Of a stretch of DNA of 64,000 nucleotides, positions 44,913 to 51,834 are shown piece after piece. Numbering within the stretch: position 1 is the first letter of the stretch; each line of letters opens with the position of its first letter. The translations under genes were made by a program, and so were the position numbers. Under the pieces are notes generated by a model. That model worked only from the letters and a program-made list of their open reading frames with translations. It was not told the origin of the DNA and did not search any database. Origin of the DNA: Noviherbaspirillum sp. UKPF54 (GTDB lineage Bacteria > Pseudomonadota > Gammaproteobacteria > Burkholderiales > Burkholderiaceae_D); NCBI RefSeq assembly GCF_007874125.1, contig NZ_CP040128.1, forward strand, positions 3,162,001 to 3,226,000. The letters run 5' to 3'.

Positions 44913-46019
44913 ATGATGAAAACCTTCTTTCCGGCCCGGCAGCGCGCCGCCAGCAAGCGCGGAATCGCGCTGCTGGCCGCGTCGGTTGTGCTGCATGCCG
45001 TCGCGTTCGAATGGGCGGCGGGCCGTCTCGGCATGCCATCCTGGCCGCAGCAGAAGGAAATGGTGATGACGACCGAATTGCTGCCCGCACCGCCGGCGCC
45101 GCGACCGGCCATTGCTCCGCCCAAGCCGAAGCAGGCCAAGCCACGGCGCGCGCCGCCGCCGCCCCCGCCGGTGGCGCAAGCAGCGCCATCCCCGACGGCG
45201 CTGACGCCGCCCGAGCCCGAGGCGGTCGAAGCCGCACCGGAAGCGGCTGCCATGCCGGCCGGCGCAAGCGATGCGGCCGAGGCAGCCAGCGCAGGCGCCG
45301 CCCAAGGCGCAGCGGCGGACGCGCCGCAGGAAGCCGCGCCGGCCAGCTACAAGTTCGACCCGCCGCCATCGGCCGAACTGACCTACGACGTGAAGGTTTT
45401 GCGGGAAGGCCAGACCTGGCACGGCTCCGGCCTGTATCGCTGGGAAGCGACGCATGACAGCTACACGGCAACCATCGAAGCGGGGGTGACGATCCTGTTC
45501 CGGATCACCGTGCTGAACCTAAAGAGCGAAGGCAGGATCAACGATCTTGGCCTGGCGCCGGTACTGTATAGCGAGAAGCCGTGGCGCAAGGCGATGACGA
45601 ACACGCATTTCCAGCATGAGAACCGCAAGATCAGCTTTTCCGCATCGGAGGCGGTGTATCCGTATAACGGCGGCGAACAGGATCGCGCCAGCGTGATCTG
45701 GCAGCTGGCCGGGATCGGGCGCGCCGATGTCGCGCAGTTCCGTCCCGGTGCCACCTTCGACCTGTTTGTCGCCGGCCCGCGCGATGCCGAAACCTGGCAC
45801 TTCACGGTGGTCGGCGCCGAAGACATCGATACCCCGAACGGCAAGCTCGGCACCTGGCATGTCCAGCGCCTGCCGAAACCGGGCTCATATGACCGGACCA
45901 TCGACATCTGGTTCGCACCTCAGCAGGAGTGGTATCCCGTCAAGGTGCGCGAGACCTACCGCAACGGCGACTACTACGACCTGTCCCTGGCAAAGGCCGA
46001 GCCTGTTGCCGCGCATTGA
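44913..46019 (+). CDS. DUF3108 protein with TonB-like proline-rich N-terminus
   Basis: This 368-residue protein has an N-terminal hydrophobic anchor ([19 protein letters not shown], 17-35), a Pro/Ala/Lys-rich spacer (57-140) like that of TonB, and a C-terminal DUF3108 beta domain from about 145 ([19 protein letters not shown]). The layout suggests an inner-membrane anchor with a domain extended through the periplasm. Its function is unknown. The next gene encodes a second copy of the C-terminal domain 18 bases downstream. Confidence 0.82.
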
Positions 46020-46037
46020 ATATTCCAAGGAAAACGC

Positions 46038-46790
46038 ATGAAACCCCTTCGTATTGCCCTGCCGGCGCTGCTGGCATGCACCCTGTCGCTGGCGTCCGCC
46101 CAGCCGGCGGCCCCTCCGGCGCCGAAGCACAAGTTCAACCTGCCGCCGTCGGCCGAACTCAGTTACGCGATCACTGCGCTGCAGAGCGGCATCCAGCTCG
46201 GCGGCAGCGCGCAGGTGCACTGGGTTGTCAACGGCAAGAAATTCTCGGTGGCGAGCGAGGCGCGCGCCATGCTGCTCGGGAAAATCCTCGAATCGCGCAG
46301 CGAAGGCGCGGTCGACGAGTATGGCCTGGCGCCCGCCAGCTTCACCGAAAAACGCATTCGCCGCGACCGCACCACCACCACCTTCGACCGCGAAGCCGGC
46401 ACCATCAGCTTCACCGCCTCCGAGCTGACCTACCCGTTGCACGGCGGCGAACAGGACCGCAACAGCGCGATATGGCAACTCATTTCCGTGGCGCGCGCGG
46501 CGCCGGCCAAGTTCAAGCCGGGCACGGAATGGACCTTCTTCGTGGCCGGCCAGCGCGACGCCGAACCCTGGACCTTCAAGGTGGTGGAGCGCGAAAAGAT
46601 CGGCACGCCCTTGGGCGAACTGAACGCGCTGCACGTGCAGAAGGAGCCCGCTCCCGGCTCCGGGGGGCAGCATGTCGATATCTGGCTGTCGCCGCAGCAC
46701 GAGTGGTATCCGGTGCGCCTGCGCTATACCGAGGCGGATGGCGACTACATCGAGCAGGCGCTGGACAAGATCAGCAAGGGCGCGTCCTGA
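46038..46790 (+). CDS. DUF3108 periplasmic protein
   Basis: This 250-residue protein has a signal peptide ([16 protein letters not shown], cleavage near 22) and a DUF3108 domain paralogous to the preceding gene: [19 protein letters not shown] aligns with that domain, as do the shared [17 protein letters not shown] and [17 protein letters not shown] blocks. The Pro-rich tether is absent, so this copy is free in the periplasm. The pair likely arose by tandem duplication. Function is unknown. Confidence 0.83.
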
Positions 46791-46864
46791 AGCGACCGCA
46801 GCCGGCGCGGCGTCCGCGCTACAATGCCGGCATTCCTTTCCCCACCTCATTCCGAATCGCCACC

Positions 46865-47566
46865 ATGATGCATTCCAGCCGTGCGCTCGTCCTGTTCAGC
46901 GGCGGGCAAGATTCCACTACCTGCCTGGCCTGGGCCTTGTCGCGCTACGCCCATGTCGAAACCATCGGCTTCGATTACGGCCAGCGGCACGCGATCGAGC
47001 TGTCGGTGCGCCCGCTCCTGCTGCAGAAAATGCGCGCGCTGTCGGCCGGCTGGAACGCCCGGCTGGGCGAGGACCACATGATCGACCTGTCGCTGCTGTC
47101 CCGTATCTCGGATACCGCGCTCACCAGCGACGTGGCCATCACGATGCAGGAAAACGGCTTGCCCAATACTTTCGTGCCGGGGCGCAACCTGCTGTTCATG
47201 ACCGTCGCCGCCACCGTCGCCTACCGGCGCGGCCTGGATGTCCTGGTCGGCGGCATGTGCGAGACCGATTTCTCCGGCTATCCCGACTGCCGCGACGACA
47301 CCATGAAAGCGCTGCAGGTGGCGCTCAACCTCGGCATGTCCACCCGCCTGAAAATCGACACGCCGCTGATGTGGATCGACAAGGCCGCAACCTGGCGCCT
47401 GGCCGAGGAGCTGGGCGGCCCGGCCCTGGTCGACCTGATCCGCACCGACACCCATACCTGCTACCTAGGCGAGCGCGGCGCGCTGCACGACTGGGGCCAC
47501 GGCTGCGGCACCTGCCCGGCATGCGAGCTGCGCGCACGCGGCTACCGTCAGTTCAGACAGGAATAA
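46865..47566 (+). CDS. queC: 7-cyano-7-deazaguanine synthase
   Basis: This 233-residue ATP-dependent enzyme makes preQ0 from 7-carboxy-7-deazaguanine for queuosine tRNA modification. The PP-loop SGGQDSTTC lies at residues 11-19, and the C-terminal zinc-binding Cys set appears as [19 protein letters not shown] plus CELRARGY near 198-222. ATG 46865 is chosen, 74 bases after the DUF3108 gene; ATG 46868 is equally possible. No preQ1 riboswitch is recognised upstream. Confidence 0.95.
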
Positions 47567-47689: not shown

Positions 47690-47953
47690 ATGATGCAATC
47701 CGAAGTGTTTCAATTTAAAACCGCGACCACCGAACAATCCCTGGCCGACGCCGTGCGCGTGCTGAGCGCCGTCGACGGCGTCGGTACCGTTACGCCTTCG
47801 CTGCTGCGCAACGAATTGAGCGTGCAGTTCAATCCGGACCGCGCATCGAAGCAGAGCCTGCGGGCGGTGCTGGCGAACGCCGGCTACGACGTCATGGCGT
47901 CGAACCCGAGCGGCGGCTGCGGCGGTGGCGGCGGCGGTTGCAGCTGCAGCTGA
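47690..47953 (+). CDS. Small HMA-like protein with Gly-Cys tail
   Basis: This 87-residue protein has a ferredoxin-like beta-alpha-beta pattern resembling heavy-metal-associated domains (LADAVRVLSAVDGVGTVTPS, then LSVQFNPDRASKQSLRAVLA), but the metal-binding CxxC of that family is missing. Its last 14 residues hold four cysteines in glycine (GGCGGGGGGCSCS), which could bind metal or Fe-S instead. ATG 47690 (or 47693) follows AAAGGACGA. The NsrR-like repeat upstream suggests nitrosative-stress control. Function is unknown. Confidence 0.7.
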   Translation: MMQSEVFQFKTATTEQSLADAVRVLSAVDGVGTVTPSLLRNELSVQFNPDRASKQSLRAVLANAGYDVMASNPSGGCGGGGGGCSCS

Positions 47954-47996
47954 ACGGCCGGCGTCTCCCTGGCATCATCTGCTAAGCTAGGGAGTC

Positions 47997-48806
47997 ATGG
48001 ACACACAACGCTCATCCCCCAAAGACAGCTGGATCGATACCGGGCAGGGACAATTGCTGGCACGCTGCTGGACGCCGCCGGGCGCCGGCGGCGACTGCCC
48101 CATCGTTCTGTTCCACGATTCGCTTGGCTGCATCGCGCTTTGGCGCACTTTCCCCGCCGTGCTGGCCGAATGCACCGGGCGCATGGTGATCGCCTACGAC
48201 CGCCTCGGGTTCGGGCAGTCCGCGGCGCGCACCGACAGGCCGGGCGTCGATTTTGTGCGGGAGGAGGCCGAACGTTTTTTCCCCGCGCTGCGCGAACAGC
48301 TGGGATTCGACCGTTTCATCGCCTTCGGTCATAGCGTGGGTGGTGGCATGGCCACATACTGTGCCGCCCTGCATGCTTCGGCATGCGAGGTCTTGATCAC
48401 CGAATCCGCGCAGGCGTTCGTGGAAGACAAGACGCGCGCCGGCATCCTGGAAGCGAAAGAGCAGTTCCGGCAGGCCGAGCCGTTCGAGCGCCTGCGGCGC
48501 TATCACGGCGAAAAAACCCGCTGGGTGCTGGACGCCTGGATCGACACCTGGCTGTCGCCGGCGTTTTCCGGCTGGTCGCTCAAGGAAGTCCTGCCGCAGG
48601 TGCGCTGCCCGACCCTGGCGATTCACGGCAGCGACGACGAATACGGCTCGCCGCTGCATCCCGAGACGATCGCGCGACTGGCGGGCGGCCCGGCGCAGGC
48701 GGAAATCATGCCCGGCACGCGGCACGTCCCGCACCGCGAGCAAGAGCATTGGGTAGCAAGGCGGGTCGCCGGCTTCATCGGCATGCACCGTCCCGCCCTG
48801 TCATAA
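47997..48806 (+). CDS. Alpha/beta hydrolase
   Basis: This 269-residue protein has the alpha/beta hydrolase fold: an oxyanion segment CPIVLFHDSLG near 33-43, the nucleophile elbow FGHSVGGGMA near 107-116 with Ser 110, a late acidic residue in IHGSDDEYG near 207, and a C-terminal His in TRHVPHREQEHW near 242-253. It is probably a cytoplasmic esterase-like enzyme; the substrate is unknown. It lies 43 bases after the HMA-like gene and may share its transcript. Confidence 0.85.
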   Translation: MDTQRSSPKDSWIDTGQGQLLARCWTPPGAGGDCPIVLFHDSLGCIALWRTFPAVLAECTGRMVIAYDRLGFGQSAARTDRPGVDFVREEAERFFPALREQLGFDRFIAFGHSVGGGMATYCAALHASACEVLITESAQAFVEDKTRAGILEAKEQFRQAEPFERLRRYHGEKTRWVLDAWIDTWLSPAFSGWSLKEVLPQVRCPTLAIHGSDDEYGSPLHPETIARLAGGPAQAEIMPGTRHVPHREQEHWVARRVAGFIGMHRPALS

Positions 48807-48894
48807 GCCCTGTAAGCAAACACAAAGGTTTCGGGAGTAGGATTGAAGATCGCGCCTCCCGCGCCCTTGACCGTCCATCCGCACGCAGGCAACC

Positions 48895-49638
48895 ATGCTC
48901 ATCGCCATTCTCACCGACATCCACGCCAACCGCGAAGCGCTCGCGGCGTGTCTGGCCCATGCCGCCGAGCGCGGCGCGCAACGCTACGCTTTCCTGGGCG
49001 ACCTGGTCGGCTACGGCGCCGACCCAGCCTGGGTGGTGGACACCGTGCGCGAGTACGTGCAGCAAGGCGCGATCGCTGTGGCCGGCAACCACGACGTGGC
49101 GGTGCTGCAGGAACCGGGCAAGCACATGAATCCGCAGGCGCGCGCCGTGATCGAATGGACGCGCGCGCAGCTCGACGAGAGCCAGCTGGCTTTCCTCGCC
49201 GGCCTGCCGCTCACCGCCGAATCCAACGGCTGCCTGTTCGTGCATGCGAGCGCGGCCGAGCCGCGCCAGTGGGAGTACATCACCGGCACCAACGAGGCGG
49301 TCAAGAGCATGCACGCCACGCGCTGCCGCGTCACCTTCTGCGGCCACGTGCACGAGCCGGCGCTGTACAACCTGTCGATGACGGGCAAGATCTCGTCGTT
49401 CGTTCCAACCGGCGACAGCAGCATCCCGCTGGCGACGCTGCGCCGCTGGCTGGTCATCCCCGGCTCCGCCGGCCAGCCGCGCGATGGCAACCCGGCGGCT
49501 TGCTACGCGCTGTACGACGACAGCACGCACGAACTGATCTATTTCCGCGTGCCCTACGACCATGAAACGGCGGCGGCCAAGATACGCGCCGCCGGCCTGC
49601 CGCAAAGCCTCAGCAGCCGCCTGGTCCAGGGAGTGTAG
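48895..49638 (+). CDS. Calcineurin-like metallophosphoesterase
   Basis: This 247-residue phosphoesterase carries the family metal motifs: TDIHAN (D8, H10), GDLVGYG near 39-45, GNHD near 68-71, and CGHVHEP near 150-156. Such enzymes act as protein phosphatases or cyclic-nucleotide/nucleotide phosphodiesterases. Its stop is separated from the kinase-USP start by two bases, so the two are co-translated. A kinase/phosphatase partnership is an inference from that spacing. Confidence 0.9.
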   Translation: MLIAILTDIHANREALAACLAHAAERGAQRYAFLGDLVGYGADPAWVVDTVREYVQQGAIAVAGNHDVAVLQEPGKHMNPQARAVIEWTRAQLDESQLAFLAGLPLTAESNGCLFVHASAAEPRQWEYITGTNEAVKSMHATRCRVTFCGHVHEPALYNLSMTGKISSFVPTGDSSIPLATLRRWLVIPGSAGQPRDGNPAACYALYDDSTHELIYFRVPYDHETAAAKIRAAGLPQSLSSRLVQGV

Positions 49639-49640
49639 CG

Positions 49641-51053
49641 ATGGTGGCGACGCGCCTTGAAGCGGGCATGGTGATCGACGGCTACGTACTGGAGGAAAAG
49701 CTGCACAAGGGCGGCATGGCGGTGCTCTGGCGCGTGCGGCGCAAGGATGCCGGGGGCGACACGCCCCCCCTTCTGATGAAGCTGCCCATCCTCGGCGACA
49801 ACCACGATCCGGCGGCCATCGTCGGCTTCGAAGTCGAGCAGATGATCATGCCCAAGCTGTCGGGCATCCACGTGCCGCGCTACATCGGCGCCGGCGACTT
49901 CACGGCCCAGCCCTACATCGTGATGGAACTGATCGCCGGCAAATCGCTGCGCGCGCGCTTCGACGACGCGCCGCTGCCGGTGGAAGAAGTCGCCGCGATC
50001 GGCATCAAGGTCGCCAATGCGCTGCACGACTTGCACCGGCAGAACGTGATCCATCTCGACATCAAGCCGAGCAACATCATGTTCCGCGCCAGCGGCGAGG
50101 CGATCCTGATCGACTACGGCCTGGCGCGGCACGACAAGCTGCCCGACCTGCTGGCCGAGGAATTCCGCCTGCCGATGGGCACCGGCCCCTACATCTCGCC
50201 GGAGCAGGTCCTCAACATCCGCAACGATCCGCGCAGCGACCTGTTCGCGCTGGGCGTGCTGCTGTACCACCTGGCCACCGGCGAGCGCCCGCTCGGCAAC
50301 CCGATGTCGGTGCGCGGCCTGCGCCGGCGCCTGTGGCGCGACCCGGTGCCGCCGCGCGCCATCAACGCGAAGATACCGGCGTGGCTGCAGGAAGTCATCC
50401 TGCACTGCCTCGAAGTCAACCCGTCCCGGCGCTACAGCACGGCCGCGCAAGTGGCGTTCGACCTGCAGAACCCGGAGCAGGTGACGCTGACGAAACGCGC
50501 GGAAAAGCGGGTGCGCGACGGCTTCGTCAAGGTCACGCGGCGCTGGTTCCGATCGATCGGCATGGAAGCCATGCCGCAGCAGTCGGCGTCCGAGCAGCTG
50601 TCGCGCGCGCCGATCGTGGTGGTCGCCATCGACCTGACGCACGGCTCGGAGGCGCTGGCCGAGGCACTACGCGTGATCACGCGGCGCATCCTGCAAACAG
50701 CGCCGGAAGCGCGGCTGGCGTGCGTGACGGTGCAAAAGACCAATCGCATCGGCATGGACGAGGTGGTCGACAAGAAAGGCCGCAATCTCCACGTCAAGCA
50801 CCTGGTCGGCCTGAAGCACTGGGCGCGCCCGCTGGCGCTCGATCCGGAAAAGATCACCTTTCACGTGCTGGAAGCGCCCGACCCGGCGGCGGCCATCATC
50901 GATTATGCCAAGGTCAACGACGTCGACCACATCGTGATCGGCTCGCGCGGCAGCTCGGTGCTGCGGCGCTATCTCGGCAGCGTGTCGTCGCAGGTGGTGG
51001 CGCAGGCCGACTGCACGGTCACGGTGGTCAAGAGCGGCGGCACCAGTTCGTGA
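49641..51053 (+). CDS. Ser/Thr protein kinase fused to a universal stress protein domain
   Basis: This 470-residue protein has a PknB-type kinase domain (about 12-285) and a USP domain (about 320-468). Kinase motifs are present: Gly loop HKGGMAVLW, Lys in LLMKLP, HLDIKPSN, DYG in place of DFG, MGTGPYISPEQ and SDLFALGVLL. The HRD Arg is Leu, so it is a non-RD kinase whose activity need not depend on loop phosphorylation. The USP part has IGSRGSSVLRRYLGSVS, a near-consensus ATP-binding loop one residue short. It lies two bases after the phosphoesterase gene. Confidence 0.9.
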   Translation: MVATRLEAGMVIDGYVLEEKLHKGGMAVLWRVRRKDAGGDTPPLLMKLPILGDNHDPAAIVGFEVEQMIMPKLSGIHVPRYIGAGDFTAQPYIVMELIAGKSLRARFDDAPLPVEEVAAIGIKVANALHDLHRQNVIHLDIKPSNIMFRASGEAILIDYGLARHDKLPDLLAEEFRLPMGTGPYISPEQVLNIRNDPRSDLFALGVLLYHLATGERPLGNPMSVRGLRRRLWRDPVPPRAINAKIPAWLQEVILHCLEVNPSRRYSTAAQVAFDLQNPEQVTLTKRAEKRVRDGFVKVTRRWFRSIGMEAMPQQSASEQLSRAPIVVVAIDLTHGSEALAEALRVITRRILQTAPEARLACVTVQKTNRIGMDEVVDKKGRNLHVKHLVGLKHWARPLALDPEKITFHVLEAPDPAAAIIDYAKVNDVDHIVIGSRGSSVLRRYLGSVSSQVVAQADCTVTVVKSGGTSS

Positions 51054-51078
51054 ACGGCCGACGCGAGCGCCGCCTGAT

Positions 51079-51834
51079 TCAAGCGCGGCGCAGGCGCGCC
51101 AGCACCGCCAATGCATTCGGCACCGCAGCCCCCTCCGCGGTATTGTCGAACACGCACCATACCCGATGGCCGGACTGCGCCTGCGCGGCGAGCGTGACAG
51201 CCAGCCGGTCCAGGTAATCCTCCGGGTAGGCCGAGTAATACATCACCGGCGAACCATGCAGCCGGACATATTGCGTGTGGTTCTTGTGCGCTGCGTCAGG
51301 CAAGGGCGCGATCTGCGGATCGGCAAGCACCGGCCCTACCCTGAATCCCGCCAGCATCTCGGCCACTTCCCTGGTGAACCATGTTGCATGGCGTGCTTCG
51401 CACATCAGGTCGACATTCGTCAAACTGCGCAGCAGGCCGAAGAACCGCTGCGCGATGGCCCGGTCATAGTGCAGGCTTGGGGGAAGCTGCACCAGCAGGC
51501 AGCCGAGCTTATGATCAAGATGCGCCACTTCATCGATGAATTTTTTCAACGGCTCGTCGACCTGCTGGAGACGCAAGGCATGCGTGATTGCCTTCGGCAC
51601 TTTTGCTGCAAAGCGAAACGCATCGGGCACGCTGTCGCGCCAGCGTGCATAGGTCGAGGGTCGGTGCGGCCGGTAGAACGAGGAGTTGATTTCCACTGCG
51701 GGAAAGACGGCGGCGTAGCGTTCCAGGTGGCTGCCGGCGCCGGGGAACGCTCCCTGCGCCGCTGCCGGGATGTTCCAGCCGGCGCAGCCGACGAATATTG
51801 CACTGTGATGCTGTGGTGCGGAAGATTTTTCCAT
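51079..51834 (-). CDS. DUF72 (YecE-like) TIM-barrel protein
   Basis: This 251-residue protein matches DUF72: FVGCAGWNIP near residues 14-23, VEINSSFYRPHRPSTYARW near 48-66, FRFAAKVPKAITH near 74-86, and a C-terminal VWCVFDNTAEG near 231. The family has a TIM-barrel structure of unknown activity. It is convergent with the kinase gene. Confidence 0.9.
   Translation of the reverse strand: MEKSSAPQHHSAIFVGCAGWNIPAAAQGAFPGAGSHLERYAAVFPAVEINSSFYRPHRPSTYARWRDSVPDAFRFAAKVPKAITHALRLQQVDEPLKKFIDEVAHLDHKLGCLLVQLPPSLHYDRAIAQRFFGLLRSLTNVDLMCEARHATWFTREVAEMLAGFRVGPVLADPQIAPLPDAAHKNHTQYVRLHGSPVMYYSAYPEDYLDRLAVTLAAQAQSGHRVWCVFDNTAEGAAVPNALAVLARLRRA

Follow-up and report, generated by a model that had tools for sequence, protein, structure and literature searches.

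A metallophosphoesterase gene kept beside a kinase-universal stress protein fusion gene: a candidate two-gene signalling cassette in Noviherbaspirillum and its relatives

Why should a phosphoesterase gene end two bases before the gene for a protein kinase fused to a universal stress protein (USP) domain, and what might the two products do together? The question is raised by positions 48,895 to 51,053 of a stretch of 64,000 nucleotides from Noviherbaspirillum sp. UKPF54 (NZ_CP040128.1, 3,162,001 to 3,226,000; hereafter the window), where a metallophosphoesterase (MPE) gene and a kinase-USP gene follow each other on the + strand (Table 1). An initial annotation of this DNA had described just this arrangement, and the coordinates and the domain matches (PF00069 and PF00582) agree with it. 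The host genome (4.7 Mb) holds a single copy of the kinase-USP gene and six other kinase matches; the window kinase shares 94% identity with its N. autotrophicum counterpart, and homologues of the 470-residue fusion carry the name "bifunctional serine/threonine-protein kinase/universal stress protein."

The MPE and kinase-USP genes are kept together

The pairing of the MPE with the kinase-USP fusion is no accident. Three draws of genomes were searched, from the window's family (195 genomes), order (399), and class (274), with thresholds of E <= 1e-60 (family) and E <= 1e-40 (order) for the kinase and E <= 1e-20 (order) for the MPE. Pooled, with shared genomes counted once, they hold 66 kinase-bearing genomes from 38 genera, and a near-full-length MPE lies directly upstream of the kinase in 65 of these, the last one having a broken MPE. 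The family draw contributes 31 genomes with the kinase-USP gene, 30 of them with a near-full-length MPE directly upstream; in the order draw the kinase was found in 38 genomes and the MPE in 40, and the two are adjacent by coordinates in all 38 (25 of these loci were re-read in sequence); the class draw yields four kinase genomes, of which two are new and both are paired. Among named loci, which are the best 80 of 547 relatives and overlap with the three draws, MPE sequence lies directly upstream in 79, counting one broken copy in N. denitrificans and one MPE that runs off its contig; at the remaining locus the kinase match starts 248 bases from a contig end.

The distance between the stop of one gene and the start of the next ranges from -11 to 181 bases and is 20 bases or less at 38 of 55 loci (starts picked by script, with the MPE of one locus, L012, represented by a tail fragment only). 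Adjacency holds even where kinase identity has fallen to 36% (G580) and 29% (G356). For alignment, 135 loci gave 134 kinases and 131 MPEs that were long enough, and these were reduced to 126 distinct kinases and 123 matching MPEs; MPE and kinase distances correlate (r 0.88, n=123), as expected for jointly inherited genes. Ten alphaproteobacterial tips form one clade within a larger one in both trees (supports 0.92 and 0.91), and the sister tips in the larger clade are betaproteobacterial, with low support at some nodes of the MPE tree. The kinase-USP gene also occurs on four alphaproteobacterial plasmid records; both genes are annotated, and adjacent, on two of these, and the other two are either cut at the gene or unannotated there. 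Retention side by side in so many bacteria points to one signalling unit.

Two loci deserve a separate word. In N. denitrificans TSA40 (G141; L012/L069/L109 and L047), the kinase has only MPE residues 198-246 next to it, and residues 1-197 are encoded at a site some 2 Mb distant, the result of a rearrangement or an assembly error. At another locus (G294:C79:55881-60221, in part L095), two MPE-kinase pairs stand head to head, the entire cassette having been duplicated in divergent orientation.

The dependence is one-sided

A kinase-USP gene without the MPE was not found in the 66 genomes, contig ends and one distant paralogue excepted. Of the 54 genomes with the MPE in the family draw, 23 lack the kinase-USP gene, as do 2 of 40 in the order draw (G011 and G214), making 24 known solo-MPE genomes, as G011 is counted in both draws. 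When seven of these genomes were searched directly (E <= 1e-10), only other kinases came up, none of them matching through the USP domain.

We compared the linked MPEs with 17 solo MPEs, of which 15 come from as many of the 23 family-draw genomes with a solo MPE and two are second copies in G171 and G019, both of which also hold a linked copy; the fragment L047 was excluded, and the G214 protein, read by eye only, stands outside this set. R183 is present in all 123 linked MPEs and W185 in 122, and both are retained in 2 of the 17 solo proteins (L048 and L064). The other 15 form one clade (support 0.998), in exactly whose members both residues are replaced, while L048 and L064 fall outside it. 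These two positions could mark a partner surface; because 15 of the 17 solo MPEs share one clade, the contrast comes close to a single evolutionary event. At 5 of the 17 solo loci (L050, L052, L053, L056, and L062), the MPE gene is followed on its own strand by one for a protein of about 1000 residues, alike by eye, which at L053 is a CHASE-PAS-GAF-GGDEF protein by Pfam.

Table 1. Features of the MPE/kinase-USP locus (window positions)
Feature	Positions	Strand	Basis
MPE gene, 247 aa, 3RQZ/SapH-like branch of the calcineurin-like superfamily	48895-49638	+	
GHVH metal-ligand motif, MPE residues H151-H153	49345-49353	+	123/123 linked and 17/17 solo MPEs
MPE residues R183-R184-W185	49441-49449	+	R183 and W185 kept when pair-linked, replaced in most solo MPEs
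Shine-Dalgarno-like AGGGAG for the kinase gene, within the MPE gene	49628-49633	+	sequence read
Kinase-USP fusion gene, 470 aa	49641-51053	+	open reading frame; Pfam PF00069 and PF00582
PknB-type kinase domain, residues ~9-284	49665-50492	+	
HLD, non-RD catalytic motif, residues 138-140	50052-50060	+	sequence
Activation segment DYG...SPE, residues 158-188	50112-50204	+	translation
USP domain, residues 324-464	50610-51032	+	Pfam Usp, weak PDB sequence matches, strand-helix order in model
USP nucleotide motif G434-SR-G437-8x-G446-S447	50940-50981	+	sequence

Both proteins have the residues of working enzymes

The kinase domain has the catalytic set of Lys, Glu, Asp (HxD), Lys, Asn, Asp (DFG), and the Glu of APE. 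The initial annotation had pointed to an altered HRD, with Leu for Arg, and the alignment bears this out for the whole family, in which the motif reads HLD in 119, HHD in 6, and HFD in 1 of the 126 distinct kinases and never HRD (0/126), so that neither the window kinase nor its relatives have the motif that defines RD kinases of the PknB type. The activation loop of the window copy has no serine, threonine, or tyrosine at residues 161-179, whereas residue 181 is one of these in 124 of 126 kinases. From this we infer that the window kinase may act independently of activation-loop phosphorylation, as the initial annotation had proposed, with the loop of the window copy in its favor and the many relatives that do carry such residues (counts below) speaking against it as a family trait. 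A defence-system reading was tentatively rejected, as among the best PADLOC models the matches fall in the kinase domain only; the best of them, PD-T4-6, covers residues 10-283 (E 7e-53).

In the MPE, residues D8, H10, D36, N65, H66, H117, H151, and H153 are invariant in all 123 linked and all 17 solo proteins, and they make up the superfamily pattern D-x-H, GD, GNH, H, GHxH; we take them to be metal ligands on the precedent of the calcineurin-like superfamily. PPP-family Ser/Thr phosphatases are recognized by the signatures GDxVDRG and GNHE. All 123 linked MPEs have Y40 at the position of the PPP Arg and GNHD in place of GNHE, the first signature reading GDLVGYG in 40, GDFVGYG in 36, GDYVGYG in 22, GDYVDYG in 5, and other variants in the rest. 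On this signature, the PPP protein phosphatases were ruled out as the family of the MPE, which might nonetheless have phosphatase activity. The nearest structure is that of a Sphaerobacter thermophilus metallophosphoesterase (3rqz), listed without a function, and, of the structural relatives whose titles name a function, the closest is SapH (Spr1479; PDB 3QFM/3QFN), an asymmetric Ap4A hydrolase and phosphodiesterase whose fold is matched over the whole length of the MPE. True Ser/Thr phosphatases are also among the fold matches.

The USP domain is recognized by Pfam (Usp, residues 326-464, 64.4 bits against a cut-off of 24, E 2e-17), and its strand-helix order is present in the structural model. 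Structure comparison is dominated by the kinase domain, and the identity of the USP part comes from Pfam and sequence. The PDB sequence matches are weak (E 2e-5 to 5e-3) and all are USPs (1wjg, 3loq, 3fdx, and 2pfs), some of them solved with nucleotides, among them Nitrosomonas 2pfs/3tnj. The window copy carries the UspFG-type ATP-binding motif, G-2x-G-(8 or 9)x-G-S/T. According to the excerpts through which this and the other papers cited here are represented, the eight-residue spacing is shared with NE1028, which was crystallised with AMP, and a degenerate motif does not exclude ATP binding (PMC3673472). The ATP-binding USP domain of the initial annotation is plausible for the window copy, where the motif is present, and less so for that part of the family in which it is degenerate. 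R358, W394, and G434 are found in all 126 kinase-USPs and C458 in 124; the persistence of the domain in proteins with a degenerate pocket motif suggests an additional role, such as docking or dimerisation.

On the evidence of these alignments, both enzymes are complete in their known active-site residues and co-inherited, and the kinase is evolutionarily tied to the MPE gene.

What the pair might do

Our results lead us to propose, tentatively, that the pair is a conserved two-gene signalling cassette in which the kinase is limited by a nucleotide-hydrolysing MPE, an arrangement that we regard as quite possible while falling short of probable. If the window kinase needs no loop phosphorylation, its control should come from elsewhere, namely from the USP domain and the MPE. 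The USP domain would provide a nucleotide pocket in the window copy and possibly a dimer or docking surface; the MPE would limit the kinase by hydrolysing the nucleotide ligand (Ap4A-, AMP-, or ATP-like) and not protein phosphates, which is the least certain step; and kinase output would increase as the nucleotide builds up during stress and decrease as the MPE removes it. That the pair is a nucleotide-alarmone-gated switch, in which the USP domain reads an adenine (di)nucleotide (Ap4A or AMP) that the MPE erases, so that a stress nucleotide is turned into protein phosphorylation, seems to us unlikely.

Several observations weigh against our proposal. The MPE is only 22% identical to SapH, and a fold alone shows no substrate; neither the MPE nor 3rqz, in the structure listings, has an assigned one. 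Of the 126 kinases, only 76 have the strict USP motif (G, G, G, S/T) and 103 a relaxed one with the second Gly dropped, and the motif changes about five times on a midpoint-rooted FastTree tree while the MPE is kept throughout; a ligand shared by the two proteins should have preserved the pocket. Serine, threonine, or tyrosine occurs at residue 162 in 97 and at residue 176 in 37 of the 126 kinases, and many relatives could still use loop phosphorylation. Finally, genome G424 has a second kinase-USP (30-32% identity) with no MPE in a 9-kb stretch (L191, G424:C39:10000-19000), although this distant protein perhaps belongs to a separate subfamily.

It is the substrate of the MPE that would decide between a nucleotide hydrolase, a phosphoprotein phosphatase, and a target of the kinase. 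As a phosphatase, the MPE would remove the phosphates that the kinase places on itself and on shared targets, which we consider doubtful: the superfamily includes true Ser/Thr phosphatases, and a kinase never found without the MPE in 66 genomes shows the tight, one-sided dependence that an antagonist would be expected to have, but the PPP signature is missing. The initial annotation is thus partly supported: its self-contained signalling unit fits the conservation of the pair, and the reversal of kinase output by the phosphoesterase, which would draw on the same superfamily membership and dependence, has the missing PPP signature against it.

The MPE might instead be the main target or effector, phosphorylated by the kinase so that its activity or location is tuned, with the USP domain acting as a sensor or docking site. 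An MPE that also works alone would suit the solo occurrences, R183 and W185 are kept and lost as a contact surface might be, and there is a precedent in the mycobacterial phosphodiesterase Rv0805, whose localisation is altered on phosphorylation by Ser/Thr kinases, although the activity of that enzyme was left unchanged (PMC4746578). We hold this to be improbable, as a single clade supplies most of the R/W contrast and the MPE has no known phosphosite (no phospho-acceptor search was made). Very unlikely, in our view, is a general stress module whose genes are merely co-transcribed with no direct functional contact, which would suit the patchy distribution (38 of 399 order genomes), the nested alphaproteobacterial copies, and the plasmid copies but fits poorly with adjacency at such low kinase identity and with short gaps that persist while the flanks change.

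Relation to known systems

The window kinase shares its fold and catalytic residues with PknB-type (Hanks) kinases and differs from them in having HLD for HRD, a loop free of phosphorylatable residues at 161-179, and a USP domain where PknB-type kinases have PASTA and membrane parts. KdpD histidine kinases, which like the window protein combine a kinase with a USP domain, are membrane bound, and Rv0805 belongs to another branch of the superfamily than the window MPE. In KdpD, a two-component histidine kinase and not a Ser/Thr kinase, the USP domain binds c-di-AMP and regulates output, and the excerpt mentions no MPE partner (PMC8214093). Rv0805 resembles the window MPE in being a metallophosphoesterase linked to Ser/Thr kinases (PknA, PknB, and PknL), but the excerpt does not describe it as part of an operon pair (PMC4746578).

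The kinase-USP fusion itself is already known, both from its NCBI product name and from a 2005 catalogue of bacterial STYKs with a USPA domain, in which the two domains likewise share one protein, and Usp was noted in 2010 as a domain tethered to proteobacterial kinases (PMC2877116). In the catalogued Nitrosomonas protein the Usp domain is N-terminal, whereas it is C-terminal in the window fusion, and the catalogue excerpt says nothing of an adjacent MPE or of a non-RD motif (PMC1262709). Among open-licence papers, we found none on an MPE/kinase-USP pair or on a nucleotide-gated pair.

We rate the pair as deserving a bench test and not as a new class of system. What USP domains and adenine dinucleotides do has long been an open question, and a pair that links a protein kinase, a USP domain, and an Ap4A-hydrolase-like enzyme in 38 genera offers a compact system for testing the roles of both. 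Protein phosphatase partners usually come from the PPM and PPP families; if the MPE were a phosphatase, it would be a partner from outside them.

Neighbouring genes

The flanking genes were scanned with Pfam. On the 5' side of the pair lie an alpha/beta hydrolase gene (47997-48806), a gene for a weakly HMA-like protein, and QueC, and on its other side a DUF72 gene (51079-51834) is oriented toward it. A scan of 47900-51200 found no promoters or terminators. The window's other neighbours are present in 0-9 of the best 80 of 547 relatives (queC in 9, two DUF3108-type genes in 6 each, DUF72 in 2, a gene of 1204 residues in 2, and the alpha/beta hydrolase and HMA genes in none). No third conserved member of the cassette was found across these 80 loci, where recurrent neighbours vary by lineage: queC recurs in Oxalobacteraceae-type loci, one gene cluster, presumably ornithine carbamoyltransferase-like from the start of its sequence, occurs in at least 19 loci, and another near it in at least 28, both counts being lower bounds, as gene-calling recovered the kinase in 78 and the MPE in 44 of the 80.

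In several relatives, some with the kinase gene and some lacking it, QueC (46784-47566 in the window) likewise precedes the MPE; at solo-MPE loci such as L053, L054, and L061 it was recognized by eye. The MPE thus seems to have occupied this site in the family for a long time. The weakly HMA-like protein of the window (47690-47953) is small, with a match below the Pfam cut-off and a C-terminal tail rich in Gly and Cys. Farther upstream, two adjoining open reading frames (44913-46790) encode products that are similar by eye, the second being DUF3108, and perhaps arose by tandem duplication.
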